Virus record (IMG/VR): IMGVR_UViG_3300047359_000579
Coordinates: 1-27,174 of that record
Reading direction: 5' to 3' (one strand)
DNA: 27,174 bases
Origin: a virus
This document shows, piece after piece, positions 6,146 through 19,796 of the stretch (position 1 is its first letter; every line of letters begins with the position of its first letter). Position numbers and translations under genes: made by a program. The notes beneath the pieces were generated by a model. The model worked only from the letters and a program-made list of their open reading frames with translations. It had not been told where the DNA came from and did no database searches.

Positions 6146-6546
6146 AGTTCAGGGTCTTCGGGGAACCAGCCATTCTCTTCCATGTATTCTTGTGATCGGA
6201 TCGTGACATCGCTTGGCACGATATGCCCGAACGGGAACTTCTGATTCACTTGCACGTAACTGCTCAGGCTGTAGCGCTCATCATTCGACAGCTCAGGGAA
6301 GCAAGCCACAAGGCGTTCGAGGTTTGCGGCAGGGTGAACGTTGATGAGGTAATCTGTGTCCACTTGCAAAGCGTTCTGTACTCCGTCAGGGTGTACGACA
6401 ATCCCAAACACGGTCGAGGCCGCTTCGCCTTCCGCCTGTATCAAAACGGGGCGGCTTATGTTGTAGAGTTCGCGCGTAATTTGGTACGCTCTGCGCTCGC
6501 TTGTCTGCGTGTCCGTTGGTAGGACTATGATAAATCCGTTCATCAA
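6142..6546 (-). CDS. Hypothetical protein directly downstream of the tail fibre (134 aa)
   Basis: It is joined to the fibre by an ATGA overlap, so it is probably translated by the same ribosomes. The N-terminus is a beta-alpha unit (NGFIIVLPTDTQTSERRAYQITREL), followed by FGIVVHPDGVQNALQVDTDYLINVHP and an acidic tail (ENGWFPEDPEL). No family recognised. Its base composition is GC-rich like the fibre, so it probably travelled with it; a fibre chaperone or fibre-associated role is possible but not shown. Confidence 0.6.
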   Translation of the reverse strand: MMNGFIIVLPTDTQTSERRAYQITRELYNISRPVLIQAEGEAASTVFGIVVHPDGVQNALQVDTDYLINVHPAANLERLVACFPELSNDERYSLSSYVQVNQKFPFGHIVPSDVTIRSQEYMEENGWFPEDPEL

Positions 6547-9500
6547 TATATGTCGTAAAAAGTGTTGATGTTGCTTTCGATGCCTGTGCGGTCGTTCGTT
6601 CTATCGTCTGAATAAATTATTAATTCTTGGCGGTTACCGACCCAGCTTCTAGTCAAAAAACGGTCTTTACTTATTCTACTAGCTACGGCTGTGCCATCTG
6701 TGTGAATCATACTTAAAACATATTGCCCTGCGCTTCTTGCCAAAGTCGTAAGGTTAACGCTTAAACCATTTAAATAATTATCGCCGTTTCTGACCACGGG
6801 GTCAGCGTGAGTTGCGCTCAACCACTCAGCTGAATTGCCACTATGATAATCGAAATTTGTACTATCCCCGAGGATAAAACTCGAGTTACTATTTGTAAAG
6901 TCGGTAGGTCTTAATACAGAAAAAACACTATTGACGTTTGAGATTTGAGTAAAATTTAAAGAAGTGTTCTGAGTTGAAGTGAAAGCCGCCCGTCCGTTAT
7001 CCGTCACCAAACCCGTGCTGCTGTCGTAAATCTTTGGCATTGAACCCGTGACCGTTTGCGTCGCGTCGTTCGTGTTGCCTGATTGGTCGTACCACTTCGA
7101 CACGAACCCGTTATTTGAACCGCAGTGGTCTGCCAGTGCAACCGTATCCAATTCACCGAATACATTGAAGCCTATATCCGCGTAGCTCGATCCGTTGTAA
7201 ACCTCTACCGCGTCACCTGTGTAAGCCGTGCGAAGTTTACGCAGTGAATACGCAGCCGCTGCACCGCTGTACGTGTCGAGGAGTGGCGTGTTTTGGGTGA
7301 AGTAATCGGCAACGTTTTCTTCGATGTCGGTGCGGTTGCCTGCGGTTTCTTGGTCAGAATTGTAAACAAGCATTTCCTGTACAATTCCAGTTAAATTATT
7401 TATGATACTCGTGTTGTTACCACCAGCTCCGATAATTATGTTTCCCGTGTGGTATTTATTTGTTGGGTATGATATTGTTGATGTGTCCGTGTTTGAGCCA
7501 TTAAAATACAAGTCTGCATTTGTGCCGTCACTATTTACGGTGAGTAAATTGTATGGCGTTGGTTTTGCCCCTGTGTTTGTCAAAGTATTACCACTGCTGC
7601 CGAGGTCTATATAAATATTATGATTACCTGAGGCTTGACCTGTTGTGATTGCACCGCTGTTAGTGTTCCAATAGTCATTACCTGAAGATGGTGCAAGGGA
7701 CGCCACCCGTCTAAAGTCAACTGATGAAGTTTCTTTGAATACAAAGAAGTTGCTGCGAACGTCTAGCCTTGCAATTGCGCTTGCTGTCGTTCTTAAATTA
7801 TCACCACTAAACTCAATGGCTGCCTTTCCGTTCTCCTTCACCAACGCCCCACCCGTGTAAATCGTTGGTTGCTTCGTTGTGTCTGTCTGCGTCGCGTCGT
7901 TACCGTTTCCGCTTTGGTCTTTCCACGTTACCACCGTGCAGCTTGTGCCTGTGCAAAACGTTTCAATAGCAGCCTCGTCGATGTTGCCTTCCGTGTCGAA
8001 GCCTATCGTTGTGGTCGTGCTATCCGATGCCCTGCGAATGAACATGCATTCGGTTTGAGCAAATCGAAGTTGACGTGTCGAATATGCTGCTTCCGCACCT
8101 GAACCAAAAGTTTCGTCCAAAAGATACGCGGTCGCGCTTACATCCTCCCACGTTTGTTTCAGGCTGATTGGAACCGTGCCGCCCGTCCTCGCTTTGAGAT
8201 ACTCCAAAAGAGCCGCCTTGACCGTAGCAAAAGAAGCATCGTCTGCAGGAGCTGGTGTAAACTCAACCCATGTGCCCGTGTCGGGATCTGCGAACGCAGC
8301 CTCTGAGTAATATATCTTCCTCTTGATAACATTGCCCGCTGTTGGGGTGTCGCTGCTTGCGCTCTCCGCGAGTCCGTCCCCGTCCGCTTTAGCGGTGTAA
8401 TAAAGTTCGACTGTATCCGTTGCACCGCTTCGGAATGTCTCCGCATCTGTTGCGAAGCGTTCGTGGTATTGAACCCCACTTGCAGCGTCTGCCCATTCGA
8501 GGTCGTAGTCCGTGCCGCTTGCCTTCACGAGAGCTTGTCCCGAAGTACCTCCTGCTATGACCCCCACTTTTGCCGTGTTCGCGGTTATCTCTCCTGCTTG
8601 AGTCGGGGTGATTCCTGTCTTGGCGTTGTTCGCTGTGATGTCATCGGCTTGGGTTTGAGTGATCCCGACCTTTGCATTGTTTGCGGTGATATCGTTCGCT
8701 TGTTGGGTCGTGATTCCGACTTTCGCGGTGTTGGCTGTTATCTCGCTGGCTTGCGTGGGTGTGATGCCTGTCTTCGCGTTGTTAGCGGTTATGTCTGCGG
8801 CTTGTTGTGTTGTTATTCCAACCTTTGCCGTATTAGCTGCGACAGCTGCATTCGCTGCAACCCGTGCCTCTGTATAGTAAAGATTCGTACCCTCGTCAAT
8901 ATCTGTCGTAACCAAGACCACTACGCCTGTCTGTCCGTTCACCGAGTCAACGGGGGCGCTTGGGATATCGTCCGTAAGCGCTAAAGTCCCTGATGAGGTG
9001 GGGAGGCTGAGGTTTACATTGTCCGCGCTATTGAGACGCATTCGAGCCTTTGTCCCGTTCCCTTCATCGTGGATGTAGACCTTGCCATATAGATTAATAT
9101 CTGCCTCGTTTGCAGTTGTCGAACCGTCTATGTTAATGACTGTGTAAGCCGTTGCTCCTGCGGCATCCGTTGCGACAATAAGATCAATATCTCCTGGGCT
9201 TGTCTCCGTGATTTCTACGCCCGTGATTCCTGCTTTCAGTTTCGCTTGTGTGACCGTTAACTCAAGTGCGCTGTCTGTTCTGCTTCCGTTGTTTTGGGTC
9301 GTGCTTGTGCCTTGCTTTAGTTCGGTATAAAGAATAAGAAGCCAGTCTACATTTTCCCAGCGCGTTTGACCACTGTTGTATTTTAGAACATCGTGATTCT
9401 CAAGGTTGTTAAGCGTTACATCTGTTAATTCAGCCAGAGATGTAACTCCAGTTGCGCTCGTGTCTAATGTAACCTCTCCGTTACCGTCGTCAGTTAGCGA

Positions 9501-9935
9501 TCCGTCAGGCACATTGATTGTACGCACGTAATGTACGTCAGTAGCGTCATTGTCTGTCTTTACACGTAATCGCTGCGAAACGCTAGGCACTAAGCCTTGG
9601 TCGTCACTAGGTACAAACGTCGTGCTTGTGCCGTCGTCGTTATACGTGTTGTACTGACTAGTAGCAAAAATTGGGTCGCCTGTGACAAAAGCAGCAACAG
9701 TCACTAAGTCTGTGCCGTCCACTTTAGCAAACGTCGCTAGATATTGACCCTCTGGTAAACCAGTAGCCGTGTAACTGAACTTTGTGGCACGTTCATTGGT
9801 TTTGTCAGCCACTAAACGAACCAAAAAATGCTCGTCAGTCATTTGAAAAACTAGGGTCAAATTAACCACCGTTAATTCTTCGCCTAAATCAATGTAGAAT
9901 GTCCTCTGTTCGTAATTAGCTAACTGTATCATCAC
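6543..9935 (-). CDS. Tail fibre / receptor-binding protein with tandem arabinofuranosidase-B-like domains (1130 aa)
   Basis: This long protein carries fibre landmarks in order: a head segment (1-140); LAELTDVTLNNLENHDVLKY (167-186) and DSVNGQTGVVVL, both typical of phage fibres; LYYTEARVAANAAVAAN (352-368); five 17-residue repeats (369-453); a spacer; then two C-terminal domains at about 608-882 and 886-1130. Each domain opens with AYStRqLR/AYSLRKLR and has a W(K/Y)DQSGN.NDATQ motif (671-683; 948-960) and ends in a TdIEeNv/TgIEsNIN helix. The motif set resembles the concanavalin-like N-terminal domain of GH54 arabinofuranosidases, so sugar binding at the host surface is likely; catalysis is not shown. 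Start is Met1 or Met2. GC is clearly higher than in neighbouring modules, suggesting horizontal gain. Confidence 0.85.
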   Translation of the reverse strand: MMIQLANYEQRTFYIDLGEELTVVNLTLVFQMTDEHFLVRLVADKTNERATKFSYTATGLPEGQYLATFAKVDGTDLVTVAAFVTGDPIFATSQYNTYNDDGTSTTFVPSDDQGLVPSVSQRLRVKTDNDATDVHYVRTINVPDGSLTDDGNGEVTLDTSATGVTSLAELTDVTLNNLENHDVLKYNSGQTRWENVDWLLILYTELKQGTSTTQNNGSRTDSALELTVTQAKLKAGITGVEITETSPGDIDLIVATDAAGATAYTVINIDGSTTANEADINLYGKVYIHDEGNGTKARMRLNSADNVNLSLPTSSGTLALTDDIPSAPVDSVNGQTGVVVLVTTDIDEGTNLYYTEARVAANAAVAANTAKVGITTQQAADITANNAKTGITPTQASEITANTAKVGITTQQANDITANNAKVGITQTQADDITANNAKTGITPTQAGEITANTAKVGVIAGGTSGQALVKASGTDYDLEWADAASGVQYHERFATDAETFRSGATDTVELYYTAKADGDGLAESASSDTPTAGNVIKRKIYYSEAAFADPDTGTWVEFTPAPADDASFATVKAALLEYLKARTGGTVPISLKQTWEDVSATAYLLDETFGSGAEAAYSTRQLRFAQTECMFIRRASDSTTTTIGFDTEGNIDEAAIETFCTGTSCTVVTWKDQSGNGNDATQTDTTKQPTIYTGGALVKENGKAAIEFSGDNLRTTASAIARLDVRSNFFVFKETSSVDFRRVASLAPSSGNDYWNTNSGAITTGQASGNHNIYIDLGSSGNTLTNTGAKPTPYNLLTVNSDGTNADLYFNGSNTDTSTISYPTNKYHTGNIIIGAGGNNTSIINNLTGIVQEMLVYNSDQETAGNRTDIEENVADYFTQNTPLLDTYSGAAAAYSLRKLRTAYTGDAVEVYNGSSYADIGFNVFGELDTVALADHCGSNNGFVSKWYDQSGNTNDATQTVTGSMPKIYDSSTGLVTDNGRAAFTSTQNTSLNFTQISNVNSVFSVLRPTDFTNSNSSFILGDSTNFDYHSGNSAEWLSATHADPVVRNGDNYLNGLSVNLTTLARSAGQYVLSMIHTDGTAVASRISKDRFLTRSWVGNRQELIIYSDDRTNDRTGIESNINTFYDIY
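8562..8831 (-). repeat. 17-residue tandem repeats in the fibre shaft
   Basis: Five units of (T/N)AK(V/T)GIT(T/P/Q)(Q/T)QA.(D/E)ITAN at residues 369-453, plus a partial unit to 458. The protein repeats are nearly identical but the codons differ between copies: on the plus strand the anticodon-side triplets for Ala, Thr, Ile and Gly vary. They probably form an elongated trimeric coiled shaft. Confidence 0.8.
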
Positions 9936-12835: not shown

Positions 12836-13648
12836 TTATGATAATGCTAAAATATCTGTTGTTGCTCCTACTTTAAATTCTACGTTTTGAAATGGGGTGC
12901 TTTCACCAATACCCAGAACATATTCAATTTCCGTTTCGTTTATGGCGGTGGCTGGAATTTGAAACTGCAAAGGATACTCGTACTCGACAGCCTCAACTGT
13001 TTCAGTCAGTGTAATATACAACCAATCACCAACACGGTAATTAGCCCCTAAAGCACTGGAATCTACTATAGCAGCAGACGGTTGAAACAAAGCTTCCGTG
13101 TCGCCTGCAAGTATCGTATATGTAAAGTCATTACCTCCGTTAACGTCTTCAAAAGTCAAGGCATCGCTTGATTTGTAACCTGTGCCTTTAATGAGATTTG
13201 TGACTTCGACAGTTTGTGATTGAGCAGTTCCTGTAACTTTCATAGTAATCTGAAGTCCTGTACCGTTCCCATCTGTCGTTGGTCGATACGTTTGAAAACC
13301 ATCACCTATTGGAGGGTTTCCTCCGAACACTACCCCTGTAGCTGTAGGAAAAGCATCAACCAAATCACCCTGTACATCAGTTACTGTAACTTTAATTTTA
13401 CCACCTGATCCACGACCGCTTGATGTAGTAGCATACGAAGCAATCGTCGCTGCTTTTTTCATCGTCGGCAAATCATTAATTGCACCAAAGACATTTGCGG
13501 CTGATTTTAGTTTGCTAAACAAATCTGCTTGCGAAGGCTTTAAGGTTAAAGTAATTGCTGCTGTATCTGGGTTGTGCAATACCATAGGCTCAGGCAAAAC
13601 TTGAAAGCCCGATGCCGCTGTTAATTCGTCAAAAAATTTAAATGCCAT
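12836..13648 (-). CDS. Virion-associated protein, possible capsid decoration or head protein (270 aa)
   Basis: The protein is beta-rich and Thr/Gly-rich with no recognised catalytic motif. Segments include VLHNPDTAAITLTLKPSQADLF near the N-terminus, a repeat-like region TSSGRGSGGKIKVTVTDVQGD and GLQITMKVTGTAQSQTVEVTN, and a C-terminus of strands (LQFQIPATAINETEIEYVLG). Such sandwich proteins are common decoration or head-fibre proteins. It precedes the scaffold by 1 nt and overlaps the preceding gene by 11 nt. Function not identified. Confidence 0.55.
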   Translation of the reverse strand: MAFKFFDELTAASGFQVLPEPMVLHNPDTAAITLTLKPSQADLFSKLKSAANVFGAINDLPTMKKAATIASYATTSSGRGSGGKIKVTVTDVQGDLVDAFPTATGVVFGGNPPIGDGFQTYRPTTDGNGTGLQITMKVTGTAQSQTVEVTNLIKGTGYKSSDALTFEDVNGGNDFTYTILAGDTEALFQPSAAIVDSSALGANYRVGDWLYITLTETVEAVEYEYPLQFQIPATAINETEIEYVLGIGESTPFQNVEFKVGATTDILALS

Positions 13649-13907
13649 AATTAGCGTCTCTTAAAAGTGTTGTAAAAAGTCTTTTGTCATAGTAGTCCAT
13701 TTCTGCTGGAGCATACTCTTCAAACAAGGTTTCAGCCTCTGTGTAATCCCAGTTGGCTACAGCCGACTCGATGAGGTCTAAGGCAACCATAAACTTGCGA
13801 TTAAGTGCATAGTCCATGCGAAACTCGTCAATCATATTGCGCAGCTCCGCGTCCTCGTCACCAATCCAGATGTCGTAGATTCTATCCCACATCAGTGATT
13901 CCACCAA
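13638..13907 (-). CDS. Small acidic protein, possible anti-defence relative of the array proteins (89 aa)
   Basis: A helical, strongly acidic protein (WDRIYDIWIGDEDAEL, AVANWDYTEAETLFEEY) ending DANYGI. Its last 15 nt, including the stop, match the end of the array gene at 17368-17619 (shared AAYTATGGCATTTAA on the minus strand), and the two proteins may be distant paralogs: both end in helix-(10-20 residues)-NYGI. It overlaps both neighbours (16 nt with the ArdA-like gene). No known family. A DNA-mimic role is possible given the charge but unproven. Confidence 0.6.
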   Translation of the reverse strand: MVESLMWDRIYDIWIGDEDAELRNMIDEFRMDYALNRKFMVALDLIESAVANWDYTEAETLFEEYAPAEMDYYDKRLFTTLLRDANYGI

Positions 13908-14614
13908 ATGCGACCAAAGTATTCATCGTAATCGTAACTGAGGTCACGAGCAAATGCTTTGTAGTCAAAGTAATCTTTCATCGTTTCTGCTCCTAGCTCA
14001 CTCAAACTACCGAGTAGGTCGTAGACATAATACTCTCCAATCTCAGCATCACTACGTCGCTGGAATTCTTCAAGAGCATCCATAGCTTGGTCTTCGCTAT
14101 CGTAATTGTCTTCCCATTCATCCATAAACATAGCGTCTACGTCACCGCTTACTCGCAGTGCGTATCCAAACTTGTCAAAGCTAAAATACCGTTCAGCCAT
14201 CTCGTCACTAACGCCTATGTCGTCTAGCAATTCATATGAGTAATCCAACAGGCTGTCAAACTCTCCTCGGTAGCTTTCTTCTAGATAATCTACATCAACA
14301 TCCCCCAAATCGCTGCGCACCTTTTCAATGTCGTAGATGTCTAAACCGATTTGATCAGCAAACTTGGCTAATTCTTGAATGCCGTCCCAGTCTTTTTCCG
14401 AAATGCCATCCATGTCAATTCCGTAAGCGTTTAGCCCATCAGAATCGACAAACTCCCACTCTTCAACTTCTGGTGGGTAATCGGCTTTCTTTTCTTCCAT
14501 TCCTTTCTGGAATGCGTCCCAAGAATTGTACGACCACGGATAAATGTAAAAGCCTTGACCACGGTAATTGTAGTCATACGGCTCCATAAAAATGTATATT
14601 TTTTCTAGCTTCAT
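13892..14614 (-). CDS. ArdA-like antirestriction protein with duplicated C-terminal module (240 aa)
   Basis: ArdA proteins are acidic DNA mimics that bind type I restriction-modification enzymes. The N-terminus has the family's GFYIYPWSYNSWDAF, and residues 112-160 (EESYRGEFDSLLDYSYELL then YFSFDKFGYALRVSGDVD) match the ArdA 'Y.GE.dS..d.a.e...…FD..a.A..L...GD' pattern. A second copy of this module occurs at 191-233, ending KDYFDYKAFARDLSYDYDEYF, giving a protein of 240 aa against about 165 in classical ArdA. It is rich in Asp/Glu throughout. It follows the protease via an ATGA overlap inside the head unit, an unusual place, since antirestriction genes are mostly early. Confidence is good for ArdA family, lower for which enzyme it blocks. 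Confidence 0.75.
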   Translation of the reverse strand: MKLEKIYIFMEPYDYNYRGQGFYIYPWSYNSWDAFQKGMEEKKADYPPEVEEWEFVDSDGLNAYGIDMDGISEKDWDGIQELAKFADQIGLDIYDIEKVRSDLGDVDVDYLEESYRGEFDSLLDYSYELLDDIGVSDEMAERYFSFDKFGYALRVSGDVDAMFMDEWEDNYDSEDQAMDALEEFQRRSDAEIGEYYVYDLLGSLSELGAETMKDYFDYKAFARDLSYDYDEYFGRIWWNH

Positions 14615-15558
14615 AGCTTCTTCAAATTGTAAAGTGATCCGTATTTCTTAACGACTATTTTGTGTAGCTCGCGCTTGTGCTTTTTAATGAGCTTTTGGCG
14701 GCTTAACTCCTCCTTTACAGCAACTTCTTCGGCTTTCTCTTCCGTTGCCTTTACTTCTCCGTCATACTCCGTCAAAACGCCTGAAAACACTTCAAGCTCT
14801 ACACCTGCTTCTGTCGTGTATTTTCCGTTTTGGATTTCTACTGGCTGACCCTCTTCATCAATGGTCTTAACCTCAACGCCAGCAGCTAGTTCTTCCGCGT
14901 CGGTAACCAGCATTTGACCGTCTTCTAGCCTAGCCTCTGCGTATAGCTTGCGCTTGCCTGTCAAAAGATTCTTAATCTCAGTCAGGGTATCCATAATTGG
15001 ATTTGATCGTTTACTCATGTTTTCAATTTTGTCTACGAAATAGCCTTCAATAGAAAAGCCTTGTACCTCTTGCTCCTTGACGAATTTCCACATCTCGTCG
15101 TTCCCTACGTGGACTCGAACCATCCAAGTGCCTTCAGGTACGTTTAGTCCATAATGCTTTGATTTATCCATCTCTGGGTCAGACACTACCCAAGACTCTA
15201 CGACTGATACATTGTCGATTGCGTCCTGATGCTCAAAGGTGTGATCGTTGGTGCGGTTCTGCTTCAAATACATTTCAGCAGCTTGCTTAACTGTGTCCTT
15301 AGAGAAGTAAACGTCGTACTCCTCGTCTTTCAGCTCATCGTATCGTGGGATGTGCTTATCAGGAATTAAAGCAGGGCCAATGAGCATGCGTTTGTCCTCG
15401 TCCTCTACGCTCGCTAATGAGACAAATTGATCTTTCTTACCCTGCTTAGAGAAAAAGATGAAATTCTCCTCAATTGCAGGGTGCTTTACTAGACTGATTG
15501 CTTCTACTGCAACTTCTGATTCGTCTCCAATAAGTAGTTCAATTAGCTTACGCTCCAT
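14611..15558 (-). CDS. XkdF-like prohead serine protease with C-terminal scaffold-like extension (315 aa)
   Basis: It would cut scaffold and capsid precursors during head maturation. Residues 55-180 match the XkdF/Peptidase_U35_2 type: MLIGPALIPDKHIPRYD, NDHTFEHQD (H106/H110), SVVESWVVSD (E121), GTWMVRVHVGNDEMWKFV and VQGFSIEGYF (S169). H106 or H110 with S169 are the likely catalytic residues. Residues 200-265 form a small beta domain (LEDGQMLVTDAEE…) and the C-terminus is a charged helix (EEKAEEVAVKEELSRQKLIKKHKRE) that may act as internal scaffold. Its start carries the same leader as the array genes (AAACAACAGAGATATG), which links the array to the head genes. Confidence 0.8.
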   Translation of the reverse strand: MERKLIELLIGDESEVAVEAISLVKHPAIEENFIFFSKQGKKDQFVSLASVEDEDKRMLIGPALIPDKHIPRYDELKDEEYDVYFSKDTVKQAAEMYLKQNRTNDHTFEHQDAIDNVSVVESWVVSDPEMDKSKHYGLNVPEGTWMVRVHVGNDEMWKFVKEQEVQGFSIEGYFVDKIENMSKRSNPIMDTLTEIKNLLTGKRKLYAEARLEDGQMLVTDAEELAAGVEVKTIDEEGQPVEIQNGKYTTEAGVELEVFSGVLTEYDGEVKATEEKAEEVAVKEELSRQKLIKKHKRELHKIVVKKYGSLYNLKKL

Positions 15559-15569
15559 ATCTCTGTTGT

Positions 15570-15854
15570 TTAAACTTGGAATTGCACATAAACAATAAAA
15601 CGTCCGTTATCGTCTTCTGTCCAATAGCCAAAATCATAATACTCATCGTTCTCCATCATCTCAGGGAATTCTTCTCGAACAAAAGCATCTAATTCAAACC
15701 TTTTAATGTCATCAATAAATATGTCAAGTGCAACCTTACTTACGTAAAATGCACTCGCCCTTTCGCTTGGCAAATAACCTATGTACTCAAAACCAGTTTC
15801 ATCTGCTAAGAAGTCACCAAATGCTTCTTGCGCTCTATCGTTTGCGTATGCCAT
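15570..15854 (-). CDS. Array gene 10: acidic hypothetical protein (94 aa)
   Basis: Preceded by the shared leader. The protein (MAYANDRAQEAFGDFLADE; then YIGYLPSERASAFYVSKVAL; FVREEFPEMMENDEYYDFGYW; DDNGRFIVYVQFQV) looks like a compact alpha/beta domain with strong acidic bias. No family recognised. Its stop lies at the leader of the prohead protease. Possible anti-defence or host-takeover factor by context only. Confidence 0.6.
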   Translation of the reverse strand: MAYANDRAQEAFGDFLADETGFEYIGYLPSERASAFYVSKVALDIFIDDIKRFELDAFVREEFPEMMENDEYYDFGYWTEDDNGRFIVYVQFQV

Positions 15855-15865
15855 ATCTCTGTTGT

Positions 15866-16096
15866 TTAGCGTGTTTGCTTTACTCTAACGCCACGATAAT
15901 CATTCATCAAATCTTCCATAACCCACGCGCCTTGCTCTGTCATGTCATCCCATGTCCAAGTGAAGACTTCATTGTCAATGCGGCTTAGTTCACCTACATC
16001 CATCCAATATTGAAAATCATGATTTACCATCCAATCATCAATCCACATTTCCAAAGCGTTAAAATCAGAACCCCATCCGTAAATTTCAAATTCCAT
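15866..16096 (-). CDS. Array gene 9: tryptophan-rich acidic protein (76 aa)
   Basis: Unusually aromatic: seven tryptophans in 76 residues (GWGSDF, EMWIDDWMV, QYWMDVG, FTWTWDDM, GAWVMED). It is acidic in the middle and basic at the very end (RGVRVKQTR). No family recognised. It carries the shared leader at its own start, and its stop sits 11 nt before the next gene's start. Confidence 0.6.
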   Translation of the reverse strand: MEFEIYGWGSDFNALEMWIDDWMVNHDFQYWMDVGELSRIDNEVFTWTWDDMTEQGAWVMEDLMNDYRGVRVKQTR

Positions 16097-16107
16097 ATCT
16101 CTGTTGT

Positions 16108-16350
16108 TTAAGCGTATTCTACATTATACCCTGCACGATACAAGGCAGATTCTAACTCGTCGGCTTGTGTGTGATTTGCGTTGTATAGGAGGATTTCTAC
16201 CTCATAGCCATTTACGTATCCTACTGTTGTTATTTCCACATTACCGAGTCCACCAATTATTTGCTCGCAAAATTCTTGTAGTTCATCGGCCCTAGAGCTT
16301 TGTGAGCTTGGCGAATCAAAATAAACAACTAATTCATGCGTCAGTACCAT
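16108..16350 (-). CDS. Array gene 8: small alpha/beta protein (80 aa)
   Basis: Begins MVLTHELVVYFDSPSSQSS and alternates strands and helices (FCEQIIGGLGN; VGYVNGYEVEILLYNA; ADELESALYRAGYNVEYA), which looks like a ferredoxin-like or ACT-like fold. Its last 30 residues resemble the end of array gene 1 (GQDILEVLKANGFDANEF), suggesting the two are paralogs. Function unknown. Confidence 0.6.
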   Translation of the reverse strand: MVLTHELVVYFDSPSSQSSRADELQEFCEQIIGGLGNVEITTVGYVNGYEVEILLYNANHTQADELESALYRAGYNVEYA

Positions 16351-16360
16351 ATCTCTGTTG

Positions 16361-16639
16361 TTATGCTCTTCTGATGTAATCTAAATCATTGAGAAAGTCA
16401 TCAATGTAATCTTCTCTTCCAAAGCCTATGCCCATATAACTAACGCTGTCTTCTACGTAGTCGATGGCTTCTTGTGCTGACATACCGTCATCATTAAAAA
16501 ACGATGCTGTGATTTCAGCAAGTAGTTCTATAAACTCAAACCGATCTTGACCAACAGCAGGATTTTTGCCATATTCCAATAGCAAAGCCGATAGCAAATC
16601 GTATCGTCTTTCTTTACTGATATATAGGTCTGTCCTCAT
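16361..16639 (-). CDS. Array gene 7: helical hypothetical protein (92 aa)
   Basis: Helical, with a basic N-terminus (MRTDLYISKERRYDLLSALL) and acidic C-terminal half (AQEAIDYVEDSVSYMGIGF, DYIDDFLNDLDYIRRA). Its leader lacks the usual AT before ATG. The end (AGAAGAGCATAA) resembles that of array gene 6, a shared ten-base junction. No family recognised. Confidence 0.6.
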   Translation of the reverse strand: MRTDLYISKERRYDLLSALLLEYGKNPAVGQDRFEFIELLAEITASFFNDDGMSAQEAIDYVEDSVSYMGIGFGREDYIDDFLNDLDYIRRA

Positions 16640-16648
16640 CTCTGTTGT

Positions 16649-16876
16649 TTATGCTCTTTTAATTATGTCTTCCAGAATACCTACTGAAATCTTGTATCCG
16701 TATGGTCGGGCTTCTAGAAGCAATTCAATCATTTCTTCGCAGTATTCACTCTGTCCATAATAAATATTATCTTCAAGTTCAATGGCTGTTACTCTACCCG
16801 TTACCCATGTAAGCATTTCTTTGGAGTTTAAAGTCCTAAGCAATGTGCGTATTTCTGAGGGATACGGGATAAACAT
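16649..16876 (-). CDS. Array gene 6: hypothetical protein (75 aa)
   Basis: MFIPYPSEIRTLLRTL at the N-terminus, a strand-like WVTGRVTAIELED, YCEEMIELLLEARPYGYK and a C-terminal helix ILEDIIKRA. Less acidic than its neighbours. The shared leader is complete (AAACAACAGAGATATG). No family recognised. Confidence 0.6.
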   Translation of the reverse strand: MFIPYPSEIRTLLRTLNSKEMLTWVTGRVTAIELEDNIYYGQSEYCEEMIELLLEARPYGYKISVGILEDIIKRA

Positions 16877-16887
16877 ATCTCTGTTGT

Positions 16888-17133
16888 TTATAGGTAATCT
16901 ATTTCTACGTCTGGCTCTTGATTTTCCAAGTCATCCATGACCTCAAACAGGAAGTCTTCGTCGTCCAAATCTAAATAACCCGTCACCTCGACCATTCTTC
17001 GCATGTCACCACGATCTGCATCTGCATAACCGTAATCATCTATGGAAATATCCAAATCACCTTCGCCTGCACCACGTGAGTCTAGGTAATCATGTACTTC
17101 GTTAAACGATAAGCCTTTTATTACAATAGTCAT
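16888..17133 (-). CDS. Array gene 5: highly acidic protein, DNA-mimic candidate (81 aa)
   Basis: By count 25 of 81 residues are Asp or Glu against five Lys/Arg, so the net charge is near -20. The acidic residues are spread along the chain (DLDISIDDYGYADADRGD; DLDDEDFLFEVMDDLEN). The short N-terminal segment (MTIVIKGLSFNEVHDYL) looks structured. Such charge density on a small protein is the hallmark of DNA-mimic inhibitors (Ocr, ArdA, some anti-CRISPRs), but no family is recognised. Confidence 0.6.
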   Translation of the reverse strand: MTIVIKGLSFNEVHDYLDSRGAGEGDLDISIDDYGYADADRGDMRRMVEVTGYLDLDDEDFLFEVMDDLENQEPDVEIDYL

Positions 17134-17145
17134 ATCTCTGTTGTT

Positions 17146-17340
17146 TTATAATCTCCCAAATCTTTCTAACATATCATACAACGCATCGTACATCTCGTCC
17201 CGTTCTGTCCGTGAAGCGTTTACCGCTAAACGCCATTCTTTTAATACGTCATGCATTACGTCACTAGGACTCATGCCGTAATCACGAGCATAATCTAACG
17301 TCAGCAAGTAGTTTTCTTTTAACTCATTTTCGAAAGACAT
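17146..17340 (-). CDS. Array gene 4: all-helical small protein (64 aa)
   Basis: Begins MSFENELKENYLLTLDYARDYG, with MSPSDVMHDVLKEWRLAV and a final helix (ERDEMYDALYDMLERFGRL). All-helical, mildly acidic. Shared leader complete. The gap to the previous gene's stop (17341-17367) is 27 nt, longer than elsewhere in the array. No family recognised. Confidence 0.6.
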   Translation of the reverse strand: MSFENELKENYLLTLDYARDYGMSPSDVMHDVLKEWRLAVNASRTERDEMYDALYDMLERFGRL

Positions 17341-17367
17341 ATCTCTGTTGTTTAGTAAGTATAAATG

Positions 17368-17619
17368 TTAAATGCCATAGTTGCTGGTTGTGTAAGCGTA
17401 ATCTTCAATGGCATCTTCTAATTGACGCAGAAACTGAGGAGTTAAAAACCGATATGCATTCCACTCATTTAAAATTAAGTGCATACGCATTGGTGTGTCA
17501 TCGTATAGTGCATCGGCAAGTTTAGACACAACATCTTCTGCCCAATCCAAATGAGCAGGTATGTTTCGCACTTGCTCATAGATTTCAGAAATTAAATTAT
17601 CTAATTGGTTAAAATCCAT
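17368..17619 (-). CDS. Array gene 3: helical acidic protein ending in NYGI (83 aa)
   Basis: Helical: MDFNQLDNLISEIYEQV, WAEDVVSKLADALYDD, MHLILNEWNAYRF, LRQLEDAIEDYAYTTSNYGI. The final NYGI and stop share a 15-nt sequence with the end of the 13638-13907 gene, and just past its stop lies a fossil-like ATGGCATTTAA that equals the start of the next gene at that other place. Shared leader present. Function unknown. Confidence 0.6.
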   Translation of the reverse strand: MDFNQLDNLISEIYEQVRNIPAHLDWAEDVVSKLADALYDDTPMRMHLILNEWNAYRFLTPQFLRQLEDAIEDYAYTTSNYGI

Positions 17620-17630
17620 ATCTCTGTTGT

Positions 17631-17870
17631 TTAGTACAATTCTATGACAATACTTTTATCCGACTCGCTTGTCATGTCATAATCTCTAAACCCTAAATCC
17701 TGTACTATTTGTCTAATGTCATATCCCCACTCACGGAGGTCACCAGCACCGTTTCTATAAATTACTACTTCAGCAGTTCCGTACGACAGCAGAGCCCCGT
17801 ATTCGATCATATAACCTAGACGTTCTACTTCGTCCATAAAGGCATCTAATTCTCTTTGTGTTACTTGCAT
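17631..17870 (-). CDS. Array gene 2: alpha/beta acidic protein (79 aa)
   Basis: MQVTQRELDAFMDEVERLGY then EVVIYRNGAGDLREWGYD and IRQIVQDLGFRDYDM, ending SIVIELY. It looks like a small beta-alpha-beta domain related in outline to array genes 1 and 8. Its leader differs by one base from the consensus. Function unknown. Confidence 0.6.
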   Translation of the reverse strand: MQVTQRELDAFMDEVERLGYMIEYGALLSYGTAEVVIYRNGAGDLREWGYDIRQIVQDLGFRDYDMTSESDKSIVIELY

Positions 17871-17881
17871 ATCTCTTTTGT

Positions 17882-18073
17882 TTAAAATTCGTTTGCGTCA
17901 AAACCGTTTGCCTTCAATACCTCAAGGATGTCTTGACCATAACGTGAGTCATCAACTTCCACAACACAGGCCATCATGCCCTTACTTCTATAGTGAAGTA
18001 CAAACACATCAAGATCGTGCAGCTTCAATACATGCTCTACATCTCGCCAGTGTTCGTGTACTAAAATATCCAT
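17882..18073 (-). CDS. Array gene 1: first small gene after the promoter (63 aa)
   Basis: I take the start at ATG 18073 (MDILVHEHWRDVEHVLKLHD) because the promoter at 18091-18121 puts the transcript start near 18083; the frame reaches 18121 but that start would lie inside the promoter. The protein alternates strands and helices (VFVLHYRSKGMMACVVEVDD) and ends EVLKANGFDANEF, resembling array gene 8. Leader ATAAACAG is related to, not identical with, the shared one. Confidence 0.6.
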   Translation of the reverse strand: MDILVHEHWRDVEHVLKLHDLDVFVLHYRSKGMMACVVEVDDSRYGQDILEVLKANGFDANEF

Positions 18074-18090
18074 CTGTTTATCTTTATAGC

Positions 18091-18121
18091 AAAATATACA
18101 TAAATTTATACATATTTGCAA
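18091..18121 (-). promoter_or_regulatory. Promoter of the small-gene array and head genes
   Basis: On the minus strand TTG (18121-18119) is followed after 20 nt by TATATTTT (18098-18091), seven of eight matches to TAnnTTTG. It lies between the tape-measure stop and the first array gene, in an AT-rich stretch. It would drive the array, protease, ArdA-like gene, scaffold, capsid and tail-tube-like gene to the terminator at 10665-10698. Confidence 0.6.
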
Positions 18122-18123
18122 GC

Positions 18124-18154
18124 AAGTAGTAAGTTTTTGATGTACTTCCTACTT
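18124..18154. promoter_or_regulatory. Inverted repeat just upstream of the array promoter
   Basis: AAGTAGTAAGT (18124-18134) pairs with ACTTCCTACTT (18144-18154) with one mismatch and a nine-base loop. It lies directly before the -33 element on the minus strand. No T-tract follows, so an operator or activator site is more likely than a strong terminator. Confidence 0.45.
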
Positions 18155-18170
18155 ATAAATATACTCAGAC

Positions 18171-19796
18171 TCATAGGTGTAACCTTTTTTCCAATGACCC
18201 CTGAGCTTGCATTTGACCCTGCAATTCACTTTGTACTATAAACGCTTGATTAGCTTGTGGTAAGGATAGTTGGCGATCGCCTGACATTTGCGGCACTAAT
18301 GATTGCGTCATACCCCCACTTCCTCGACCTCCTCCTCCACTACCCAATCCTCCCGTACTTGCGCCTGCTTGATTCAGTATGCCCTTTACCTGTGCAAAAG
18401 AACTCATTACAATACCAACTAACTGCGCTATCAAAATAGGTGTAACAATAGGAGCTGCTGGTCCAGAAGCTGTGGCTGCTACTGTCGCTGCTGTAATGGC
18501 AGATGAAACAGCTTGCGCTTGAGACAACAAAATGCTAGTAATAGCAAATGCCTTTTGTGCTTCTGAGCCGTCCGTAGCTAATCGTTCAAGCTGGCTGCTA
18601 ATATTCTCTGCGGCCCTTAGCCCTTCTTGCCTTGCTGCACCCGTCAAGCGTATTCCCTCTATTGCAATTGCTGTCGCTCTTTGATTTGCTAGAACCTCAG
18701 CGTCACTAGCGTCCAATATTTCTTGGGTTTTCTGGTCTAAAAACGCATCGAGGTCATCTAATTGGCGTTGGTAGCTGTCGCGTTTCTGCTGTTCAATTTC
18801 TTGATCGCGATTGAACTGGTCCATTGCAAAATCATCAAACTCCTCGTCTTCGCTTTCCTTTTCTAACTGTCGAATTTGTTCGTCTATGCTGGCCCTTTCC
18901 TTTTCTAGCCTTAAACGCTCTACCTCTGCTTCTCTCTGTAATCTAGCCGCTTCATTTTGCCGCTCGATTTCTTTAGTTCGCTCTGCCTCGATTGCAAGTT
19001 GTTGCAGTATAAGCCCGTTGAACTCTTCTTTTAAGTCATTAATTTCGTTGTCAATGTCCGCTTGTGCCTCGTCTACTTTTTGCGCACGCTGTCGCTTACT
19101 TAACAATAGGTCTAACGTAGTCAAAGCATCGTCTGCTGTTTGTCTACGCTTCTCTTCAATAGCTTGTAATGTTTTCTGCTGTTGCGCTTGTAAACCCTCA
19201 AGTTCTATCTGACGTTGGACCGCTAAATTGAATCGCTCTAAACCGTCTGCCGTTGAGATGTCGAGGTTCTGTACTTCTCTTAACCTAGCACCCATCGTAG
19301 CCAAAGCCTGATTACGCAGATCGGCACTTGCTGTGCTGTCATTGACCGAATCAATATATTGCTGATTGGCTGTGACGTATGAGTTTATTGCTGTAGTTCC
19401 TGCCTCTACACGCTTGTTGTACTCCTCTTGTTTTTTATCGACACCCGTGAGGAGATTTGTAATAGTCTCCCAATTCTCAATAAGCGACTCTAACGCTAAA
19501 ATCAATAAGCCGATGCCTAATCCAGCAAACGCGCCTTTTAGAAATTTTAGGCTACGACCCAACCGACCCACCGCACGCTGGGTAGATTGAAACTTCCGAA
19601 TCATCATCTGGATGTTTCGAGGCAACAAACCACTAAACAAGTTGGCAAAATTACCAAACTCCTTTGAGCTTGCGCTGGCAGCTTTTTTGGATTTTCTCTT
19701 TAACTCTTCAACCTCATCACCTACCTCCTTAATATTTTGCTTCGCGTCTTCGACCTCTGCGACAACCTTCGCTTCTACGTTTATCGGTTTAGCCAT
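18171..19796 (-). CDS. Tail tape-measure protein (541 aa)
   Basis: It sets tail length and lies in the tail lumen. Residues 110-415 are long charged helices with coiled-coil character (QIELEGLQAQQQKTLQAIEE; AARLQREAEVERLRLEKERA). Hydrophobic segments at about 85-106 (LKGAFAGLGIGLLILALESL) and 424-473 (SQAQAVSSAITAATVAAT…LIAQLVGIVMSSF) could enter the host membrane. A Gly-rich hinge (SGGGGRGSGG) and a C-terminal FIVQSELQGQMQAQGSLEKR end, as in Bacteroidota siphophages, follow. At about 0.15 nm per residue the tail would be near 80 nm. Confidence 0.85.
   Translation of the reverse strand: MAKPINVEAKVVAEVEDAKQNIKEVGDEVEELKRKSKKAASASSKEFGNFANLFSGLLPRNIQMMIRKFQSTQRAVGRLGRSLKFLKGAFAGLGIGLLILALESLIENWETITNLLTGVDKKQEEYNKRVEAGTTAINSYVTANQQYIDSVNDSTASADLRNQALATMGARLREVQNLDISTADGLERFNLAVQRQIELEGLQAQQQKTLQAIEEKRRQTADDALTTLDLLLSKRQRAQKVDEAQADIDNEINDLKEEFNGLILQQLAIEAERTKEIERQNEAARLQREAEVERLRLEKERASIDEQIRQLEKESEDEEFDDFAMDQFNRDQEIEQQKRDSYQRQLDDLDAFLDQKTQEILDASDAEVLANQRATAIAIEGIRLTGAARQEGLRAAENISSQLERLATDGSEAQKAFAITSILLSQAQAVSSAITAATVAATASGPAAPIVTPILIAQLVGIVMSSFAQVKGILNQAGASTGGLGSGGGGRGSGGMTQSLVPQMSGDRQLSLPQANQAFIVQSELQGQMQAQGSLEKRLHL

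Follow-up and report, generated by a model that had tools for sequence, protein, structure and literature searches.

Ten small genes stand in a row in the 27,174-base IMG/VR virus record IMGVR_UViG_3300047359_000579, here called the window (all positions refer to this whole stretch), and nine of them begin behind the same short leader, which raises the question of why so many different genes should share one sequence. All recognised genes of the window lie on the minus strand, in the order terminase, tail genes, tape measure, array, prohead protease, ArdA, capsid genes, portal and endolysin. The array (15570-18073, minus strand) consists of ten open reading frames (ORFs) of 63-94 residues between the tape-measure gene (18171-19796) and the gene of an XkdF-like protease (14611-15558), with the leader AAACAACAGAGAT ahead of nine of the ten small genes and of the protease gene. 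We propose that the array is a row of exchangeable single-gene cassettes, in which the joint between neighbours would act both as a translation start and as a crossover site and the acidic cargo would counter host defences, in phages of probable Bacteroidota; altogether, we consider this reading probable.

Stop codon and leader together form a single joint, TAA-ACAACAGAGAT-ATG, with a stop-to-start spacing of usually 11 nucleotides (nt). A search for AAACAACAGAGATATG with up to three mismatches gave 10 matches across the window, all inside the array, compared to a mean of 0.61 and a maximum of 3 in 100 dinucleotide shuffles, which bears out the claim of an earlier note on this DNA that nine small genes and the protease gene share one leader. 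Seven of the leader copies are exact (that of the protease gene included), two have one mismatch and one runs two bases into the start codon. All ten genes stop with TAA, and because the successive stop-to-start gaps (11, 11, 27, 12, 11, 9, 10, 11, 11 and 11 nt) are mostly 9-12 nt, nearly every stop sits in the joint, as had been noticed for several of them. The leader is real but shorter than the 16 nt then given to it: it covers 13 nt ahead of the ATG, or 14 if the T of TAA is counted. At 18073, the array opens with a gene that has no leader.

The same arrangement was found well beyond the window. An exact 16-mer scan of viral contigs returned 99 stretches, and among the 80 listed 29 hold three to eight copies. 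Alignment of the protease yielded 444 relatives, the best 80 of which were analysed as loci; at least two leader-preceded ORFs were present in 61 of these 80, amounting to 321 such ORFs, compared to 26 for reversed motifs and 0-10 for five scrambles. Since several leader variants (A2, C, D and E, see below) came from these same 80 loci, the locus count is descriptive and the scrambles serve as the control. When the proteins of two cassette families served as queries, 26 loci were obtained, mostly on contigs already sampled, and 22 of them have a leader (up to two mismatches). Some two-mismatch matches stand away from an array by chance, for example in loci L124 and L127. Many relatives carry the array downstream of the protease, often directly behind ArdA, so that its placement inside a head operon, as the earlier note had it, is true for the window and does not extend to those relatives. 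Altogether, it is well supported that stop-leader-start cassette arrays are a real and general feature.

Cassettes are shuffled and homology ends at the joint

Counted by locus and strand, there were 121 arrays, which were reduced to 52 by dropping those with at least half of their cassettes present as identical DNA in another array. Among the 286 leader-preceded ORFs, 279 are complete, and setting aside 17 of more than 150 residues left 262 small cassettes, which fall into 128 families with 67 singletons. The families follow a stricter rule than a first, looser clustering that had joined an 80-residue cassette with the protease. Their number is still climbing with the number of arrays, from 22.9 at five arrays to 128 at 52, and duplicates of a family within one array set are absent, compared to 5.25 expected (P 0.003). 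All 177 neighbour pairs are distinct, where random order would give about 1.2 recurring pairs, a count that is not a pure test because de-duplication favours distinct pairs; the analysis of homology borders depends less on this step. The gap between cassettes is 11 nt in 142 of 227 cases and exceeds 40 nt in 34. Rather than the same genes in the same order behind unrelated leaders, a leader search in related phages revealed the opposite: the genes behind the leader vary, their orders differ and homology ends at the leader. A cassette structure, one of two options raised in the earlier note, is thus strongly supported.

The borders of homology were examined in like cassettes, defined as cassettes of different arrays whose first or last 90 nt are at least 80% identical, by ungapped alignment. 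On the start side, 95 pairs of the same leader type show an identity of about 0.92 within the gene and 0.95 within the leader, dropping to about 0.3 over the 60 bases upstream. On the stop side, the values for 80 such pairs are about 0.92 (gene), 0.84 (linker) and about 0.31 (next gene, past its first ten bases). Moreover, blocks of at least 90% identity have 411 ends inside arrays, and 241 of these coincide with a leader in both sequences (156 of 276 if each query position counts only once), compared to the 7.3% of array positions that leaders occupy. Some of the ends off the leader are the protease start, or places where one array is leaderless.

Whole cassettes also appear as isolated islands of near-identity. 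Single cassettes at least 97% identical (97-100%) between two leaders were found 23 times, in 19 array pairs, with other neighbours on either side. The window shares one such island with locus L111 (99.3% over 276 bp, with 74% identity in the shared DNA outside the array) and another with L065 (98.4% over 316 bp, with 71.8% outside). In addition, loci L090 and L116 differ by one extra cassette: the DNA to its right is 99.93% identical over 2986 bp starting at the leader, and leftward lie two cassettes at 99.5% over 439 bp and a third that is 72% identical in its first 81 bp and 97% in its last 87, followed by the extra cassette. A single crossover was rejected for this pair in view of the mixed pattern on the left.

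The joint itself differs between arrays. Four types are well supported, A (TAAACAACAGAGAT), B (TAAAACAACTTAAAG), C (TAAACCACAACGAT) and E (TAATAAAAAGAAT); A2 (TAACCAACAGAGAT) is a one-base variant and D (AACACACAGAGAT) is weak, with three cassettes. A further leader, F (CAAACTGATTTAA, from L305 and L324), gave no array under the array rule used, and a scan of viral contigs with leader B gave, among the matches listed, almost only single ones. Compared to their own consensus, 205 of the 286 leaders are exact, 63 have one mismatch and 18 have two. In type A, all 13 positions up to the ATG are at least 80% conserved, among matches preselected for at most two mismatches.

One clade has two arrays per genome, with B before the protease and E after it (12 loci, some near-duplicates). 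Upstream of the protease these loci hold 27 B leaders, the protease's own included, and no E; downstream they hold 25 E and four B, the latter in L287 and L291 as a separate run behind the E run. Two leader types in one genome mean that neither the host nor its ribosome explains the choice of leader. Clearly different leaders precede members of 21 of the 61 multi-member families (26 counting A2 apart), and E and A copies of one family reach 83% amino acid identity. Family F0 stands behind A, A2, B, C and E, that is, behind four clearly different leaders.

In a protease tree of 64 of the 80 relatives, from which identical or short ones were dropped, the leader label changes 13 times, compared to 31.5 when shuffled, and among leader types with more than two rows C alone forms one clade. 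The types therefore cluster, mostly without forming one clade each, and are lineage-linked rather than of single origin. One of 28 array-phage records (G001) is probably a complete genome, with identical 127-bp ends and a unit of 30,859 bp, and in it the joint stands ahead of a start codon within the array only; likewise, the joint is not used by the remaining genes in the window or in two further genomes. Because lineages differ, one genome holds two leaders and F0 sits behind four, leader uniformity appears to belong to the array rather than to the gene or the host.

The hosts are probably Bacteroidota, judging from the nearest isolates, namely Nonlabens phage P12024S by protease (37% identity over 75%) and, by terminase, a gut phage followed by Phocaeicola phages. 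In P12024S, no ATG is preceded by one of the six leaders (up to two mismatches), and three starts are the most that share an 8-mer in this place. Three cassettes, ArdA and a 270-residue protein encoded beside the capsid genes of the window had no tblastn match among 50,697 phage records.

Proposed start signal and exchange, and the cargo

The cassette proteins form a class by their composition. Among 250 cassettes, none has a net charge of zero or above; in the same loci, the share is 35% for other small ORFs (n = 153) and 12.5% for larger ones (n = 335), these comparison ORFs being mechanical calls. The isoelectric point is at most 5.0 in all of 90 proteins, one per family of the first family set, and aspartate and glutamate together make up 22% of cassette residues, lysine 2%. 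The median dN/dS is 0.19 (85 pairs from 35 families, two pairs above 1), which means that the cassettes are real, constrained proteins; they are under purifying selection. The earlier note had described the ten proteins of the window as 63-94 residues long, mostly acidic and unrecognised, and sizes and lack of identification stand, while acidity exceeds its wording, as all ten have a net charge of -4 to -20. None of the ten had a match at the Pfam cut-off, and the best PHROG match (E 4e-4) is to a family of unknown function.

Domain searches covered 136 rows, comprising 128 family representatives and eight further window proteins. Pfam gave one strong match (DUF3846, 2.3e-13) and six families at E ≤0.01, and PHROG four matches at E <1e-7, all without description; PADLOC gave nothing better than E 0.005, NCBIfam no match at E ≤0.01, and PF07275, the ArdA family, none. 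Inspection of the N-termini for a shared signal in the same rows revealed only M1 as nearly invariant. Profile comparison of 61 families found F10, F21 and F42 alone to be clearly related. Structures were modelled for two of the 128 families. The F0 model is a predicted beta-alpha-beta-beta-alpha-beta ferredoxin-like fold (pLDDT 92.8), for which a search of viral structures gave nothing at E <0.001, and the F3 model (pLDDT 88.7) resembles a circular permutation of it, its best match being an S6 permutant (Z 9.6). The PDB matches of both predicted structures are generic ferredoxin-like folds that indicate no function.

The leader probably also sets translation, since it occupies the place of the initiation region and is A-rich at positions important in Flavobacterium. 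According to PMC6847099, Flavobacterium ribosomes do not use the Shine-Dalgarno sequence, and initiation there is raised by A at -3, -6, -12 and -13; three of these four A positions occur in every one of the six leader consensus sequences. The other option of the earlier note, a leader that sets equal translation rates, is probably true as well, beside the cassette role.

We propose that each cassette is one small gene and that the array-wide joint holds the previous stop and the start region of the next gene. The joint would have two roles: a ready start signal for ribosomes that do not pair with a Shine-Dalgarno sequence, and a stretch of 13-17 identical bases at every gene border, where the arrays of co-infecting phages could cross over. 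A gene could then be gained, lost or moved without a frameshift or the loss of its start. Arrays with the same joint would exchange most readily, and because exchange needs like joints, a common joint would spread and be homogenised within a gene pool, giving near-uniform arrays and different joints between pools. The cargo would most likely be a changing set of small acidic inhibitors of host defences, for example of restriction enzymes. In its fullest form, the proposal holds that the array-specific joint is both start signal and crossover password without a dedicated recombinase, that exchange homogenises joints and isolates pools, and that the outcome is a reshuffled, open-ended library of acidic counter-defence genes; taken whole, this is tentative and falls slightly short of an even call.

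Counter-defence is the probable function because the cargo is acidic, changes quickly, has one copy per family and is linked to ArdA. ArdA was found in 17 of 28 longer records. Among 26 distinct ArdA-like proteins, 10 (including those of L289, L273, L287 and L302) run straight into a joint and a cassette and none is preceded by one; ArdA therefore bounds some arrays upstream, just as the protease bounds others downstream. In these ten genes the ArdA stop codon builds the first joint of the array. These indirect signs agree with the anti-defence idea of the earlier note, which gained no match to a known anti-defence protein.

The cargo might take the more specific form of a polyimmunity-like changing set of acidic inhibitors, each blocking one toxin-like defence effector, which we regard as rather doubtful. 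According to PMC3482391, bacteria including Bacteroidetes can carry small, unrelated immunity genes in heterogeneous tandem arrays, closely spaced and different from strain to strain, and a CdiI immunity protein is among the many middling fold matches of the F0 model (Z 7.2). However, this predicted match is no better than many unrelated ones, and none of the six Pfam families found at E ≤0.01 in the 136 rows, where most families are unknown, is an immunity family.

The joint might instead be bound by a regulator of the phage, either a protein or a small RNA, through which all cassettes are translated under common control, with selection keeping the joint uniform and exchange as a by-product. 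The conservation of type A, preselected as its matches were, goes beyond the needs of initiation, the joint of G001 precedes start codons within the array only, and a similar role has been discussed for the start-associated elements (SAS) of mycobacteriophages (PMC3203893, in its accessible part). Against this, the 12 loci with two joints per genome would need two regulators, and lineages change their joint yet keep the same families; we find such a regulator unlikely. An equally improbable alternative is that the cassette products are virion or capsid-internal proteins that are packaged and then injected, in the manner of the internal proteins of T4. The array of the window does sit in the structural half, between tape measure and prohead protease, and the 270-residue gene by the capsid genes has four leader-bearing relatives within arrays (31-37% identity); in T4, one such injected protein, IPI, inhibits a restriction enzyme (PMC9026906). 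But many arrays stand downstream of the protease, behind ArdA, the 136 rows have no shared N-terminal targeting sequence, and the T4 internal proteins are described there as basic, whereas the cassettes are acidic.

It is still less probable that the joint is merely a good start for Bacteroidota ribosomes, kept uniform by selection, with crossovers due to general recombination at chance identity. The leaders are indeed A-rich and lack a Shine-Dalgarno sequence, and they agree with Flavobacterium (PMC6847099) in having A at -12 and at -3 or -6, yet the joint is missing from the remaining genes, both in the window and in two further genomes, one genome can have two different joints, and 13 fixed bases are hardly expected from a mere optimum. 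Finally, tandem duplication with fast-diverging paralogues and retained leaders is very improbable, as only three of 61 families are clearly related pairwise, same-family repeats within an array set are lacking, several families look helical by eye and the same family occurs under different leaders, even though the two modelled families, unrelated in sequence, are both predicted as ferredoxin-like, one of them circularly permuted.

Several results weigh against the proposed cassette exchange and its counter-defence cargo. The leaders are imperfectly uniform (81 of 286 with one or two mismatches), and the reduction from 121 to 52 arrays lowers the chance of seeing a repeated pair. Of the block ends, 170 of 411 lie off the leader in at least one sequence, and block ends and islands come from overlapping pairs and near-duplicate contigs and are hence not independent. 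The mixed pattern left of the extra cassette in L090 and L116 implies that at least one exchange there seems intragenic, so some exchange seems to fall inside genes. That the leader travels with its gene is unsupported, since like-cassette pairs share leader variants in 1 of 20 cases on the 5' side and 0 of 16 on the 3' side. ERF, RecT and YqaJ were found in none of the 28 array-phage records, leaving no annealase or recombinase for such short homology, and a named annealase was dropped as the agent of exchange. No cassette among the 136 rows was recognised as a known anti-defence protein by Pfam, PHROG, PADLOC or NCBIfam, and cassettes as fragments of ArdA were rejected, the best hhalign probability between 128 families and 26 ArdA-like proteins being 36%. 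P12024S has genes annotated as ERF and YqaJ-like, and a NinG/Rap junction nuclease is present in both genomes in which some ORFs were scanned (L359 and L361).

If cassettes are exchanged as proposed, the same stop and start at each border would let any border crossover yield a working gene, a clean way of whole-gene swapping for a small phage. At least 128 families, nearly all unknown, become one class: small, acidic, exchangeable and, where tested, under purifying selection. A simple search rule, the repeated joint, should reveal more arrays in unnamed phage genomes, and the array-specific joints would offer a testable case of sequence homogenisation driven by exchange. Should the cargo be counter-defence, the arrays would be a ready library of new inhibitors of bacterial immunity, probably in Bacteroidota.

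The array of the window and its neighbours

All features of the window described here lie on the minus strand. Cassette gene 1 (17882-18073, 63 residues) opens the array without a leader and is followed by a joint of TAA and leader with one mismatch (TAAACAAAAGAGAT, 17871-17884). Gene 2 (17631-17870, 79 residues) belongs to family F3, with six members and the predicted circularly permuted ferredoxin-like fold, and an exact joint (17620-17633) leads to gene 3 (17368-17619, 83 residues), of the three-member family F16, which is the cassette found as a 99.3% copy in L111 among other neighbours. The next leader, exact and with a T before it (17341-17354), stands apart from the upstream gene, which stops earlier, 27 nt ahead of the start of gene 4 (17146-17340, 64 residues, a singleton family). 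An exact leader preceded by A (17134-17147, gap 12) introduces gene 5 (16888-17133, 81 residues), the window's member of F0, which counts 11 members, with leaders A, A2, B and E in the set and C in L345. After an exact joint (16877-16890) follows gene 6 (16649-16876, 75 residues), again a singleton family.

The joint ahead of gene 7 (16638-16651) has an exact leader and a start codon two bases early, so that the ATG of this 92-residue gene (16361-16639) overlaps the leader (AAACAACAGAG-ATG). Gene 8 (16108-16350, 80 residues, of the two-member family F39) stands behind a joint with one A fewer (TAACAACAGAGAT, 16351-16363). The remaining joints, at 16097-16110, 15855-15868 and, ahead of the protease gene, 15559-15572, are exact. 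They precede gene 9 (15866-16096, 76 residues) of family F13, with four members and leaders A and B; gene 10 (15570-15854, 94 residues) of the five-member family F5, with the 98.4% copy in L065 among other neighbours; and the protease itself (14611-15558, 315 residues, PF14550 E 6.7e-18), a fixed gene that forms the downstream edge of the array and bears its last leader. At the C-termini of cassettes in the whole set, tyrosine is the last residue in 72 of 262, with the codon TAC before the stop in 59, compared to an overall tyrosine share of 7.4%. Possibly the joint, or else a C-terminal signal, extends into the end of the cassette gene.

Upstream of the array, an AT-rich gap extends from the tape-measure stop (18074-18170), is similar in L108, L109, L111 and L112, and is a candidate promoter region. 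The Bacteroidota promoter consensus is TTG-N17-23-TAnnTTTG. It precedes 2 of 49 array starts, which were set mechanically, compared to 1 of 344 larger genes and none of 234 inner cassettes, a signal too weak to uphold the claim of promoters at array starts, which was dropped.

Downstream of the protease lies the ArdA-like antirestriction gene (13892-14614), encoding 240 residues with a net charge of -43 (PF07275 E 3e-12); PF07275 matches it in two stretches, and the protein may therefore hold a repeated domain. The 270-residue gene (12836-13648) has no PHROG or Pfam match, and its leader-preceded relatives lie within the arrays of L065, L014, L055 and L296, so that the cargo is not strictly limited to small proteins. 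Further on, a protein of 1130 residues is encoded at 6543-9935. One stretch of it is arabinofuranosidase-like (PF09206, E 3.6e-10) and it also matches a virion structural PHROG, so it might be a tail or fibre protein that degrades sugars.

Among the relatives, the protease ORFs of L280/L281, L284, L285, L325 and L327 have 541-556 residues rather than about 315, owing to a C-terminal extension or fusion. L332 (JAFMIA010000163.1), the single relative from genome contigs, is a 4977-bp contig with a 96% identical protease in a Pseudomonadales metagenome-assembled genome (isolate DEBay_Spr30G08_9) and is possibly misbinned. L359 and L361 carry an O-like or helix-turn-helix replication initiator, and L361 also a C5 cytosine methylase.

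Comparison with known systems

By title or start of abstract, no report naming such arrays in Bacteroidota phages was found among the papers listed from the open-access literature, a coverage outside which most subscription papers fall. The nearest known systems are the mycobacteriophage SAS in anatomy and the mobile regulatory cassettes of T4 in behaviour, from which the arrays differ in sequence, place, spacing and array specificity. The latter (PeSL), said to have been described in T4-type phages by Arbiol et al. in 2010, reportedly place an early promoter and a stem-loop between genes. They share with the joint a repeated element at the borders of shuffled small accessory genes, whereas the 11-14 nt stop-to-start element here is too short for a promoter and a stem-loop. 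Integron cassettes have attC recombination sites and a tyrosine integrase. Their arrays likewise consist of shuffled single-gene cassettes with short joints, but the 11-nt joint here is too short for attC and is probably a start signal; attC sites and an integrase were not searched for.

On the side of the cargo, ArdA and the small sArdA resemble the cassettes as acidic antirestriction proteins, as far as the accessible text of PMC12548430 goes, and ArdA borders arrays, but no cassette family is homologous to the ArdA-like proteins of these phages. The T4 proteins IPI, IPII and IPIII are likewise variable small proteins, one of them antirestriction, made with the head (PMC9026906, accessible text). 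They are described as basic, with a shared capsid-targeting sequence, whereas the cassettes are acidic, share no protein sequence and have a non-coding exchange joint. Polyimmunity loci (Zhang et al. 2012, PMC3482391) are similar in that small genes of unrelated structure stand in tandem and in one orientation, closely spaced and varying from strain to strain; they differ in being bacterial and of recognised immunity families, and the accessible part of that report mentions no uniform joint.

The closest likeness in anatomy is to SAS and ESAS of Cluster K mycobacteriophages (Pope et al. 2011), whose function is unknown and for which a role in translation is suspected (PMC3203893). As described in the accessible text, SAS is a 13-bp repeat before the starts of different families, in one orientation and sometimes with the preceding stop, as in the joint. 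Its sequence is GGGATAGGAGCCC, with a Shine-Dalgarno core, compared to TAAACAACAGAGAT and other A-rich joints here, which have no AGGAG. SAS lies in the non-structural half, mostly in gaps of more than 50 bp and typically 3-7 bp from the start, with inverted repeats in about half of the cases, whereas here the genes occupy the interval between tape measure and protease, gaps are mostly 11 nt and the joint touches the ATG. Compared to SAS as described there, contiguous arrays, shuffled genes and array-specific joints are features of the arrays reported here.

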